Shown here: positions 31,037 through 33,757 of the stretch, piece by piece
Numbering within the stretch: position 1 is the first letter of the stretch
Layout: each line of letters begins with the position of its first letter
Source of the DNA: Flavivirga spongiicola
GTDB lineage: Bacteria > Bacteroidota > Bacteroidia > Flavobacteriales > Flavobacteriaceae
Assembly (NCBI RefSeq): GCF_030540825.1
Contig: NZ_JAUOEO010000001.1
Coordinates: 2,143,001 to 2,207,000, forward strand
Direction: 5' to 3'
DNA length: 64,000 bases
The notes under the pieces: model-generated
The model's database searches: none
What the model saw: the letters and a program-made list of their open reading frames with translations, nothing else
What the model was told of the DNA's origin: nothing
Program-made: the position numbers and the translations under genes

Positions 31037-31216
31037 TTATAACATCATACCACCACAAATACCGAAGCTTATAATGACATAAACAGCAGCTAAAATAAAT
31101 AATACTTTGGCTGCTTTTTTGTTTTTTTCACGAATAGCAAATCCAATAATAGCTAGTAAAATAGCTGGTCCAAGCATGATCGCTAGTATTAAGTATACCA
31201 AGCCATCTAAATTCAT
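31037..31216 (-). CDS. 59-residue membrane protein, paralogue of the gene at 31420-31623
   Basis: I prefer the ATG at 31216 (MNLDGLVYLIL) over the upstream one at 31273, since it is preceded by AGAAGG and gives a protein matching its neighbour. Two membrane spans flank a basic loop (REKNKKAAKV). The segment KKAAKVLFILAAVYVIISFG closely parallels KTAKVLGIITAVYLIISLG in the gene at 31420-31623, so the two arose by duplication. It is the last gene of the Lgt-like/radical SAM operon. Function unknown. Confidence 0.7.
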   Translation of the reverse strand: MNLDGLVYLILAIMLGPAILLAIIGFAIREKNKKAAKVLFILAAVYVIISFGICGGMML

Positions 31217-31224
31217 ATTTCCTT

Positions 31225-31404
31225 CTAATACCAATTTGAATATAAAATGTCCCATGTCGACTCGTTTACCCAATCAAGTTGAGTACAGGCTTTTTTAAAT
31301 CTAAATACCTTGTTCATAAATTCCGTAACGATGCTATGCAATCTAATCACAGCGTTTTTATATTTTAAAATAACGTCGTCTTTAATACGATATTTTATAC
31401 TCAA
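31225..31404 (-). CDS. Possible 59-codon ORF with TTG start
   Basis: Between the two mini membrane-protein genes an open frame runs from TTG (31404) to TAG (31225). It encodes a hydrophilic, aromatic-rich peptide ending DILYSNWY. No ATG gives more than 30 residues and no homology is recognised, so this may be non-coding spacer. I list it because the gap would otherwise be unexplained. Confidence 0.25.
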   Translation of the reverse strand: MSIKYRIKDDVILKYKNAVIRLHSIVTEFMNKVFRFKKACTQLDWVNESTWDILYSNWY

Positions 31405-31419
31405 ATTAGTATGAAAATA

Positions 31420-31623
31420 TCATAAAGTCATAATGCCGCAATAGCCTAAGCTAATTATTAAATAAACCGCAGTAATAATACCTAGAACTTTGGCTGTTTT
31501 TGGTTTTTTCCGTCTTAAAGTTAGAGCAATAATTCCTAAAATAATTGGTATCCCAAAGAAAAATAATAAAAACAGTAATATGACAATGGTGTAATCGCCT
31601 CCTTCAATTAAAAGTGTGGTCAT
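31420..31623 (-). CDS. 67-residue membrane protein, paralogue of 31037-31216
   Basis: Two hydrophobic spans (about 13-37 and 46-66) flank a basic loop (RRKKPKTAK). The second span and following CG-containing tail match the downstream paralogue. It starts 9 bp after the stop of the radical SAM gene, so it is almost certainly cotranscribed. Small two-span proteins of this type may act as partners for membrane enzymes, which is inference here. Confidence 0.72.
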   Translation of the reverse strand: MTTLLIEGGDYTIVILLFLLFFFGIPIILGIIALTLRRKKPKTAKVLGIITAVYLIISLGYCGIMTL

Positions 31624-31632
31624 AATATTTCG

Positions 31633-33024
31633 TTATATTTCGTTTCTAAGTGTTTCTAATCTCGCTTTTTTATCATCCCTATAAAATAAATTCATAGTTT
31701 CAAACGGGATAATTTTATTGTCTTTATCTACAATATGAACGCAAGATTTTTTAATAGCTCGCACATCAAAATTATAAGCATCAATAAATTGCATGATAAT
31801 GACCCTAAATAAATTATCGTAGCCCAAATTTGGTGCATCAATGTTTGGCAAACAACACATAATTGACTTTAAATTTTCTTCGGCAACTTCAACAGAGTTT
31901 CCCGTACTAAAAAGTTCTATCATTTTACCTTGAAGACTTTCATCTTGCTCATAAATAATAGTGTTTTTACTATTATCTAATAAATCATTGGGGTTTATAT
32001 ATCTGGTTAACGGAAATACCTCTTCTCCCAATTTAAGTGCGTATCCCATGACCAAAGCATCTGGATTACAGGGTACAGGAAGCAAATCGTCTGGATTGAA
32101 AATAGTGGTTTGTTCCATGATTTTTCGACGTACCTCTGTGAGTGTCATTCTATCGGTTTCTGGATTAAAATGTTCCAGTCTACCAGCAATTTGCGTTGGT
32201 TGAAGTGTAACACCCCGAACACATTTTTGCTTTAAAGCAAAGTCTATTATTTTACCTATTTCGTGATCGTTTAACCCTTTTTGAAGGGTGACTACCAGTG
32301 TGGTTGATAAATTAAGTTGGTTTAAATTTTCAATGGCTTGTTTCCTTATATCATTTAAGTGGGCGCCACGGAGTTCTTGTAATACACTGTTTTCAAAAGA
32401 ATCAAATTGAAGATAAATTTCAAAATCTGGTGCATAGGTTTTTAGTTTTTCCGCGAAAGCAAAATCTTTTGCAATTTTAATCCCATTGGTATTCAACATT
32501 AAATGGCGAATGGGTAATGATTTTGCATAATCTAAAATTTCAAAAAATTGTGGATGAATGGTGGGTTCGCCACCACTAATTTGTACGACATCTGGTTCTT
32601 TTTCGTTAGCGACGATGGTATTCAACATGGTTTTTACTTCTTGTAAAGTACGATGTCTTCCGTAAGTTGGTGATGAGCCCGCATAACAGGTCGGACAGGT
32701 TAAATTACAACGGTCTGTAACCTCAACAACGGTTAAACAGGAATGTTGTTCGTGGTCTGGACACAAACCACAGTCGTAAGGGCAGCCATAATCTGTTTTA
32801 GTATTAAATTTATAGGGCGTTTCAGAAGGTTTATTATAGTTTCTTATGTTTTTATAATAGGCTATATCGTCGGCTATTAACACTTTAGAATTACCGTGTT
32901 CATTGCAGCGTTTTAACATATAAACATGGTCGTTTTCGAACACAATTTTGGCATCGACACGTTTTAAACATTCCGGGCAAAGGCTTAACGTAAAATCATA
33001 GTAGGTATATTTTCTAACGGGCAT
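31633..33024 (-). CDS. Cys-rich radical SAM protein resembling tetraether-lipid synthase family
   Basis: The 463-residue protein has the radical SAM cluster motif CNLTCPTC (C106, C110, C113) and SGGEP (about 154). N-terminal to it are a CPEC pair (C16, C19), C40, and CPYDCGLC (C81, C85, C88) with C96; CC and another Cys lie near the C-terminus. This layout of extra cysteines around VVEVTDRCNLTCPTCYAG resembles the archaeal Tes/MJ0619 family, which joins lipid tails by C-C bond formation and uses auxiliary iron sites. The start overlaps the Lgt-like gene by 11 bp. The lipid link is reinforced by that neighbour, but the reaction is not shown by sequence. Confidence 0.8.
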   Translation of the reverse strand: MPVRKYTYYDFTLSLCPECLKRVDAKIVFENDHVYMLKRCNEHGNSKVLIADDIAYYKNIRNYNKPSETPYKFNTKTDYGCPYDCGLCPDHEQHSCLTVVEVTDRCNLTCPTCYAGSSPTYGRHRTLQEVKTMLNTIVANEKEPDVVQISGGEPTIHPQFFEILDYAKSLPIRHLMLNTNGIKIAKDFAFAEKLKTYAPDFEIYLQFDSFENSVLQELRGAHLNDIRKQAIENLNQLNLSTTLVVTLQKGLNDHEIGKIIDFALKQKCVRGVTLQPTQIAGRLEHFNPETDRMTLTEVRRKIMEQTTIFNPDDLLPVPCNPDALVMGYALKLGEEVFPLTRYINPNDLLDNSKNTIIYEQDESLQGKMIELFSTGNSVEVAEENLKSIMCCLPNIDAPNLGYDNLFRVIIMQFIDAYNFDVRAIKKSCVHIVDKDNKIIPFETMNLFYRDDKKARLETLRNEI

Positions 33025-33757
33025 TTTTAAAAATGTTTAAAATGGTTTTGTGGTAATAAAGCAAACAAATTAGACATAATATTTGAATTGTGCTTAATCC
33101 GAAGAGATAAAACACATTTGGTTTTAAAAGCTCTATGAAGAATCTGAATGTAAAATAGATAATCATAAACCATTTAAATAGGTCGCCATTTTTTAAGGTT
33201 GATCTGTTTCTGATACGTTTTAAACTGAAAAACAGAATAATTAGAAATATCAATTCGTATAGAGCTACAGGGTGACGTAACAAGCCATCCCCTAAATCCA
33301 TGCCAAAAATAGAAATTGTTTTTGTACCATAAGTAAATTCATTTATGCCAGACAAAAAGCACCCAACCCGTCCAATAAAAATACCTAGAATAATCGGGAA
33401 CACAAATAAATCACCAGATGATTGGATTTCACCGATGCGTTTTTTAGCTATTTCGACACCTAGTAAACCGCCAAATAATCCACCCATAATGGTTTTTGTA
33501 TTGAGTAGTTGAATGATGTTTTCTTGTGATATGTTAACAAAGGGGTTTTCTAAAAACCCAACGAGTCTGGAACCTATTAAAGCGCCAAGTGCAGCACCTA
33601 AAATAATAGAGAGCCTATTGTTTGATGAAATAACATCGCTGCTTTTTCTTCTTAGAAGTACGTAATACCGAAAGGCTATAAAAAATGCCAGGTATTCTAA
33701 AACCAGATGGATATTTATGTTATAACCAAAAAGAATGGGTTCGTAGGGAATATTCAA
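33014..33757 (-). CDS. Divergent Lgt-like membrane protein lacking the catalytic His
   Basis: The 247-residue protein has about seven membrane helices and the overall Lgt pattern: ALIGSRLVGFL, TIMGGLFGG, GIFIGRVGCFLSG (equivalent of the Arg-containing GRxGNxxNGE) and LLRHPVALYE. Canonical prolipoprotein diacylglyceryl transferases have HGG where this has MGG (Met91), and NGE is replaced by SGI, so classical lipoprotein transferase activity is doubtful. The start is TTG at 33757, since an in-frame stop lies two codons upstream. It is the first gene of the operon with the radical SAM protein. Confidence 0.8.
   Translation of the reverse strand: MNIPYEPILFGYNINIHLVLEYLAFFIAFRYYVLLRRKSSDVISSNNRLSIILGAALGALIGSRLVGFLENPFVNISQENIIQLLNTKTIMGGLFGGLLGVEIAKKRIGEIQSSGDLFVFPIILGIFIGRVGCFLSGINEFTYGTKTISIFGMDLGDGLLRHPVALYELIFLIILFFSLKRIRNRSTLKNGDLFKWFMIIYFTFRFFIELLKPNVFYLFGLSTIQILCLICLLYYHKTILNIFKNAR

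Follow-up and report, generated by a model that had tools for sequence, protein, structure and literature searches.

Two enzyme systems are among the described ones closest to the four-gene cassette reported here, which lies in a 64,000-nucleotide stretch of the Flavivirga spongiicola genome (C1:2143001-2207000 of 5.9 Mb; this whole stretch is called the window). One is the lipoprotein pathway of Lgt, LspA and Lnt, whose lipobox has Gly, Ala or Ser at the position before the cysteine (-1), a small residue being needed there for cleavage by LspA. In the available sections of a study of E. coli Lgt, the active site is presumably periplasmic, an arginine network is proposed for activation of the C3-O, and the histidine of the HGGL motif is proposed to help bind the lipobox peptide (PMC4728403). 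The other is Tes (GDGT-MAS, MJ0619), a radical S-adenosylmethionine (SAM) enzyme that, according to the accessible part of its report, was crystallised with phospholipids, draws lipid tails into its active site with an alkyl radical proposed on a cluster sulfur, and has a C-terminal cluster proposed to mediate the joining of alkyl ends (PMC9433317). Relatives of Tes in bacteria were described in 2022, and the portions available of the two reports leave their function open (PMC9433317, PMC8941075). The window cassette combines an Lgt-like protein (Lgt2), a Tes-related radical SAM enzyme (rSAM) and two small membrane proteins (mini1 and mini2) with a conserved cysteine near the C-terminus. We propose, at a probability of about 0.4, that it is a dedicated lipid-attachment module, in which Lgt2 lipidates the tail cysteine of the minis and rSAM produces or modifies that lipid. 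The genes, all on the minus strand, follow the order Lgt2, rSAM, mini1, mini2 and have the following features:

33014..33757, minus strand: Lgt2, an Lgt-like transferase paralogue of 247 amino acids with a TTG start
33359..33370, minus strand: Lgt2 codons R130 to C133, motif R-V-G-C, with R130 and C133 in 103/103 Lgt2 rows
31633..33024, minus strand: rSAM, assigned by sequence to a sister clade of Tes, 463 amino acids
31420..31623, minus strand: mini1, a two-span membrane protein of 67 amino acids ending ...ISLGYCGIMTL, with the cysteine at residue 62 (Cys62)
31438..31440, minus strand: codon of the conserved C-terminal cysteine of mini1, from sequence and conservation
31037..31255, minus strand: mini2, a paralogue of mini1, 72 amino acids ending ...ISFGICGGMML
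31055..31057, minus strand: codon of the conserved C-terminal cysteine of mini2, from sequence and conservation

The Lgt2 and rSAM open reading frames (ORFs) overlap by 11 bp, and 9 bp separate the rSAM stop from the mini1 start. The gene positions, order, TTG start and both of these distances had been given in an earlier note on this DNA and were all confirmed in the sequence, as was the presence of every motif it listed (CNLTCPTC, CPEC and CPYDCGLC; RHPxxLYE, GRxG and MGG). The longest ORF of mini2 begins at a TTG at 31273 and has 78 codons for amino acids; the true start is probably the ATG at 31255, because the database protein (P0002) has 72 amino acids. The rSAM protein is 97% identical to Flavivirga proteins and matches the Pfam families Radical_SAM (88.3 bits, cut-off 29.5) and Zn_ribbon_HMPTM (69.6 bits, cut-off 27). 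Neither mini has a Pfam or NCBIfam match above cut-off. They are paralogous, as the same note had supposed (44-45% identity), and a search of their own genome with mini2 returned these two minis only at E < 0.3. The ratio of nonsynonymous to synonymous substitution rates (dN/dS) is 0.09-0.34 over the ten closest comparisons of mini2 and 0.28 in one comparison of mini1, and because these values are low the minis look like real genes.

The association of Lgt2 with rSAM extends well beyond the window. An even sample from the phylum, made up of 296 genomes with the window's own among them, was scored for rSAM at E <= 1e-40 and for Lgt2 at E <= 1e-12; rSAM is present in 26 genomes, Lgt2 in 25 and both in 24 (Fisher p 6e-32, kinship not corrected for), which bears out the expectation that the pair is conserved together. 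Two of the genomes with both (G092 and G328) have them on different contigs. The genomes with one gene only are G075 (Lgt2), G124 (an rSAM that scores above the NCBIfam Tes cut-off) and G153, where an Lgt-like protein adjoins rSAM but is too distant for the threshold. Of the genomes listed for one genus (g46), six have both genes and 11 neither. A contig scan with rSAM, from which the best 80 of 290 loci were kept, gives an rSAM ORF in all 80, and in 78 of them this ORF is preceded by an Lgt2 ORF of the same orientation. Of the 78 Lgt2 ORFs, 49 overlap rSAM by up to 30 bp, 24 lie within 400 bp and five are further away; in the remaining two loci (L047, cut by the contig end, and L077) Lgt2 was detected by tblastn. 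The distances in the Lgt2 and rSAM trees are strongly correlated (r 0.89 over 27 rows, equalled in 0 of 2000 permutations, again with kinship not corrected for), and the two trees share three odd placements: a locus of the window's family (L124) adjoins one of another family (L125), Persicobacter falls among Flavobacteriaceae (support 90/64 and 82/70), and L133 groups with actinobacteria. The shared placements and the agreement of the trees suggest joint movement and joint inheritance of the two genes. Taken with the minis, described below, the four genes form an inherited and widespread module.

A profile built from the two window minis was run on 4786 small ORFs in 97 loci (one species is counted twice in this set, as L109 and L113, which have identical rSAMs). 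It matches 138 ORFs, and 136 of these lie on the same strand as rSAM at -400 to +1500 bp of its end, in 87 of the 97 loci, with one mini in 41 loci, two in 43 and three in three. There are several consistent features in the tails of these proteins. A cysteine is present within the last 15 residues of 129 of the 136 (126 of 132 distinct sequences), and every one of the 87 loci has at least one cysteine-bearing mini. The usual motif is G-x-C: glycine is at -2 in 128 of the 129 and at +1 in 123, the six commonest residues at -1 are Ile (83), Val (23), Tyr (9), Leu (5), Phe (4) and Ala (2), and three to 11 residues follow the cysteine. These tails therefore show neither the small residue at -1 typical of the lipobox nor a cysteine that opens the mature protein. 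This conservation makes the minis the likely substrate of the module, where the earlier note had overlooked the cysteine and treated them as accessories. In other respects they vary far more than rSAM; a search of 149 genomes of the class with mini1 alone, a query that misses divergent minis, matched four, namely the window genome, a cassette in G079, a likely chance match in G156, and G401, in which a complete cassette was subsequently found. The remaining two of the 138 profile matches are extra mini copies in L048 that lie away from the cassette, about 4.8-5.0 kb after rSAM.

Ten loci have no profile match (L101 and L120 to L128); L120 ends at a contig end and seven of the ten have divergent minis. 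The first-pass lists of minis had been selected for a near-terminal cysteine, and to remove this bias a further listing was made without such selection for 17 hand-chosen divergent loci (L123, where neither an Lgt nor a mini accompanies rSAM, was left out). A small ORF with several spans was counted if it directly adjoined or overlapped either a core gene or the first mini. In 21 of the 22 small membrane proteins counted, a cysteine lies 1-14 residues from the end; the single miss is an additional Nonomuraea ORF for a membrane protein, situated at the rSAM end (L161 6395-6826), with its cysteine 25 residues from the end. Left out of the 22 were the ICMT- and DUF4395-like ORFs of L151 and L152, L126 3329-3493, L152 7513-7788, L122 3095-3313 (which overlaps a mini in another frame), and, in L126 and L128, two ORFs that stop some 55 bp short of Lgt2 and have their cysteine 39 residues from the end. 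Among control proteins with a C-terminal membrane span, which were of at least 120 amino acids and not size-matched, nine of 75 have a near-terminal cysteine. Lysine and arginine are concentrated in the loop between the spans (mean 4.9 in the 129 minis, compared with 0.29 over the 12 N-terminal residues and 0.03 beyond the cysteine), and by the positive-inside rule both ends of a mini should therefore face out, placing the cysteine on the periplasmic side, where the active site of Lgt presumably also lies. A cysteine at the outer membrane face, following basic residues and a hydrophobic helix, is also what the lipoprotein pathway uses, but there it is N-terminal, whereas that of the minis is at the C-terminal end and usually preceded by Ile or Val.

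Cassettes are also found outside the Bacteroidota. Matches to rSAM were obtained in 71 plasmid records; four of these also match Lgt2, and they are all of the plasmid records that match the window's Lgt2; in every one, Lgt2 is within about 1.1 kb of rSAM. Two are from Mycobacterium, one from Nonomuraea and one from Persicobacter. In Mycobacterium branderi the order is Lgt-like gene, two small membrane proteins (with tails ...GGLCTGLNPADYAG and ...VGVCTGLNPAMYTGA) and rSAM, and in Nonomuraea a membrane protein ending ...SAGICTGINPSLYG is followed by the Lgt-like gene and rSAM. With the M. branderi Lgt as query, 24 plasmid records were matched, four of them the cassettes; the other 20 matches are weak, with partial query coverage, and most are annotated lgt. 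Close rSAM relatives occur in named Mycobacterium, Mycolicibacterium, Nocardia, Nonomuraea and Microbispora, with gene context not seen.

Lgt2 has the Lgt fold. It matches the Pfam family LGT (PF01790) at 86.4 bits (cut-off 24.9), and its predicted model (predicted local distance difference test, pLDDT, 87.6) has a confident match to E. coli Lgt alone. Lgt2 residues were compared in an alignment of 103 rows (102 distinct), with E. coli numbering transferred through the genome's canonical Lgt and structure 5azb. Between 99 and 103 of the rows retain the equivalents of E. coli G142, R143, G145, G154, E202, Y235, R239 and E243, among them the lipid-site residues R130 (which corresponds to E. coli R143; 103 rows), E168 (103), Y201 (102; its equivalence to Y235 was set by the spacing to R239), R205 (102) and E209 (99). 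The arginine/glutamate network of the lipid site is thus common to Lgt2 and the lipoprotein pathway, which has no counterpart to the partnership with rSAM.

The rSAM enzyme is clearly related to Tes. Its best solved relative by sequence is Tes (7tol, E 1.4e-66), and in a Foldseek search its predicted model (pLDDT 79, with residues 347-396 unreliable) matches Tes 7tol/7tom with a template modelling (TM) score of 0.81 by query length (E 1e-35), the other rows shown being at 0.38 or less. The rubredoxin site C16-C19-C40-H43 has exactly the Tes spacing CX2CX20CX2H, the N cluster (C81-C85-C88) and the SAM cluster (C106-C110-C113, CX3CX2C) agree with those of Tes, and Met439 is kept. In a midpoint-rooted tree of 46 rows, however, the 12 Tes rows form one side of a branch with support of 100/100, and the 30 system rows (including P0164, P0178 and P0224, whose context was not seen) lie outside it; their nearest outsider is a Mycolicibacterium rSAM on a long branch with a methyltransferase neighbour. 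The window protein scores below the cut-off of the NCBIfam Tes model (NF045702, 291.2 bits vs 450), and the best model, TrsS (NF045646), is likewise below its own (330.2 bits vs 490). From these comparisons rSAM is assigned to a sister clade of Tes that occurs with Lgt2 and minis, and is not Tes itself. The Tes layout read earlier from the cysteines thus holds for the rubredoxin, N and SAM clusters and fails for the third cluster; kinship with a lipid enzyme rather than a non-lipid family has the closest sequence and fold on its side, with the TrsS model and the tree position outside Tes as qualifications. The TrsS-related pairs of rSAM and methyltransferase in haloarchaea and Mycolicibacterium share H94, C96, C319 and C428 of the window's rSAM (common to L159 and L160), but in four of four plasmid loci (Mycolicibacterium and three haloarchaea; L159, L160, L181, L182) the methyltransferase directly follows rSAM, with DUF547 and redoxin-type genes in two haloarchaeal loci and no Lgt among the annotated neighbours shown.

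In the mechanism that we favour, the minis would be substrates in the form of hairpins with both termini out, the cysteine (mostly in G-x-C) being at the outer end of the last helix, 1-14 residues from the C-terminus. Lgt2, in which the lipid-binding and C3-O activating residues of Lgt are kept, would transfer a diacylglyceryl-type lipid to this cysteine. Because the residue at -1 is bulky (usually Ile or Val), unlike that of the lipobox, cleavage by LspA is unlikely; the helix would not be removed, and a hairpin lipidated close to its C-terminus would result. The Tes-sister rSAM would make or alter the lipid, before or after transfer, by radical coupling, branching, or sulfur insertion (thiolation) of an alkyl chain, so that the end product would be a mini-protein in the membrane with an unusual lipid attached. 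The module, the joint inheritance of its genes, the homologies and folds, and the conserved cysteine with its probable membrane side are results of computation. Lipidation of the cysteine, catalysis by Lgt2 and action of rSAM on the lipid are what we infer, and this chemistry is offered as a hypothesis at the probability given above. A lipid-modification system of an Lgt-like and a Tes-related enzyme, as suggested in the earlier note, accordingly stands as the leading reading with the Tes label partly right; the observations behind that suggestion are confirmed and its interpretation is partly supported. What is new is the three-part module, whose function we infer, each enzyme coming from a known superfamily; it was not found described in the open-access literature, a search to which subscription papers were mostly external.

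Several observations weigh against this mechanism. The position of the HGGL histidine (H103), matched by motif since MAFFT shifts that stretch, is never histidine in the 103 Lgt2 rows: the residue before GG is Met in 88, Val in seven, Leu in three, and Ile, Ala and Thr in one each, two rows having no motif. None of five H103 mutants of E. coli Lgt complemented, in the part of that study available (PMC4728403). Asn146 is also lost, its place being taken by C133 in every row. The kept lipid-site residues together with these two losses therefore point, on sequence grounds, to a donor side that looks able to work and an acceptor side that has changed. Lgt2 and rSAM would moreover act on opposite faces of the membrane, since the cysteine is predicted outside and radical SAM enzymes are, as far as is known, cytosolic. 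In rSAM, the C-terminal cysteines C338, C455 and C470, invariant in nine Tes rows and from that invariance the presumed ligands of the Tes C-terminal cluster, correspond to A323, S427 and E442, and Tyr459 to I431; C428 is one place off, C319, C390 and C391 are nearby, and these four may replace the missing cysteines. The actinobacterial rSAM clade has equivalents of C338, C455 and C470 and is without the N-cluster cysteines, and the branch uniting the 30 system rows has support of 94/59, the second value being weak. Genome G075 has Lgt2 and no protein carrying the Zn-ribbon domain. Finally, seven of the 136 minis have no tail cysteine (each such locus has another mini with one), no mini was seen in L101 (986 bp covered downstream) or L123, and G092, queried with a related mini, yielded no match, though Lgt2 and rSAM are present.

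The loss of the histidine and the silence of G092 are also what would be expected if the minis were not substrates at all, Lgt2 moving diacylglyceryl to a small-molecule or lipid acceptor, rSAM altering its chains, and the minis serving as subunits whose cysteine is structural or metal-binding. Tes itself acts on free lipids, as its partly available report describes (PMC9433317), and the residue missing from Lgt2 is the one proposed for lipobox peptide binding (PMC4728403, in part). Yet the minis vary in copy number and sequence and keep the cysteine even where they are barely similar, which is the pattern of a modified residue, and the acceptor of Lgt is itself a cysteine; we regard this pathway as unlikely, though the likeliest of the alternatives. 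Small cysteine-bearing proteins beside an rSAM gene are typical of ribosomally synthesised and post-translationally modified peptides (RiPPs), and rSAM could instead modify the mini as a maturase does, for example by forming a thioether at the cysteine, with Lgt2 secondary. A RiPP that passes through the lipoprotein pathway is known in DybA, of the MNIO family, which like the minis joins a small peptide, modification by a metal enzyme and an S-diacylglyceryl lipid; DybA, however, has an N-terminal lipobox and is processed by the general Lgt/LspA/Lnt pathway, and 'radical SAM' occurs 0 times in the available text of that paper (PMC12636315). The mini cysteine is predicted outside, SPASM maturase models score far below cut-off for rSAM, and the nearest fold is Tes with SkfB and SuiB far behind, so that we consider maturation of this kind quite improbable.

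Two further explanations centre on Lgt2. C133 adjoins the catalytic arginine in all 103 rows, and might take an acyl chain as a thioester and hand it to the mini cysteine; the chemistry of Lgt is attack at the glycerol C3 and not acyl transfer, and Lgt2 retains the network of arginines proposed to activate the C3-O (PMC4728403, as far as available), which leaves S-acylation very unlikely. Membership of PF01790 would equally suit a second ordinary Lgt for lipoproteins, its linkage to rSAM being meaningless. The genome already has a canonical Lgt (C1:3402670-3403527, E 9.9e-59), 1.2 Mb from the cassette, so the Lgt-like protein is not its only one, a point on which the earlier proposal depended; Lgt2 scores 45.1 bits against the cut-off of 118.9 for the Lgt equivalog model (TIGR00544), has lost both the HGGL histidine and Asn146, and co-occurs almost perfectly with rSAM, and this explanation has very little to recommend it. 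Returning to the lipid-attachment module, a more specific version, in which the extracytoplasmic C-terminal cysteine receives through Lgt2 a lipid whose chains rSAM has joined or sulfur-linked, would be a new class of protein lipidation; we put it forward tentatively, as itself unlikely. If true, ordinary marine bacteria and mycobacteria could contain peptides anchored to a lipid with coupled chains, perhaps even one that spans the membrane. If the module functions as proposed, a C-terminal lipid anchor would join the known ways of tethering bacterial proteins and radical lipid chemistry would be tied to proteins. For one large clade of bacterial Tes relatives, an enzyme partner and a protein that may serve as acceptor can now be named.

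A number of other leads were rejected. The NCBIfam lipo-invert model (NF058595) matches the minis at 15.1 bits (cut-off 37) and none of 40 mini relatives above cut-off; because all 14 of 14 control genomes have matches below cut-off, this was taken as noise. Matches of the minis to DUF4064 and heme O synthase are far below cut-off, a general C-terminal sorting signal was discarded as mini2 has no further match in its own genome, and viral carriage was discarded as viral contigs are without a close rSAM relative. Neighbours resembling dusB, lepA and rbfA, recognised by eye in most of the 80 loci, were considered as a fourth conserved partner; we take them as chromosomal synteny of one family, and in seven divergent stretches the neighbours, also by eye, differ from this set.

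Some individual loci are of interest in their own right. Records L076, L083 and L098 are titled as Saprospiraceae metagenome-assembled genomes, and their rSAMs are 90-92% identical to the window's, like those of Flavobacteriaceae, which suggests that the contigs are mis-binned. G075 has an orphan Lgt2 with GRVGC (L173 3153-3998), rSAM of the cassette family being absent from the genome; no mini was found there with one related mini query. In G124, a bacterial rSAM of the window's phylum (L154 6864-8321) scores above the NCBIfam Tes cut-off (493.8 vs 450), no Lgt-like gene or Cys-tailed mini was seen around it, and by its sequence it is a candidate maker of membrane-spanning lipids. A five-gene variant is present in two genomes of different families (L151 4486-8088 and L152 3435-6941), in the order rSAM, ICMT-family methyltransferase, DUF4395 protein, Lgt-like protein and C-terminal-Cys mini (Pfam was run on the L152 proteins); the DUF4395 protein has Cys-Cys near its end, and eukaryotic ICMT homologues act on lipidated C-terminal cysteines. 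Finally, the tail of an ORF in G153 (L153 4278-6215) resembles that of the extra Nonomuraea ORF of L161 (..RSxCxLxDTRLVLAYL..).

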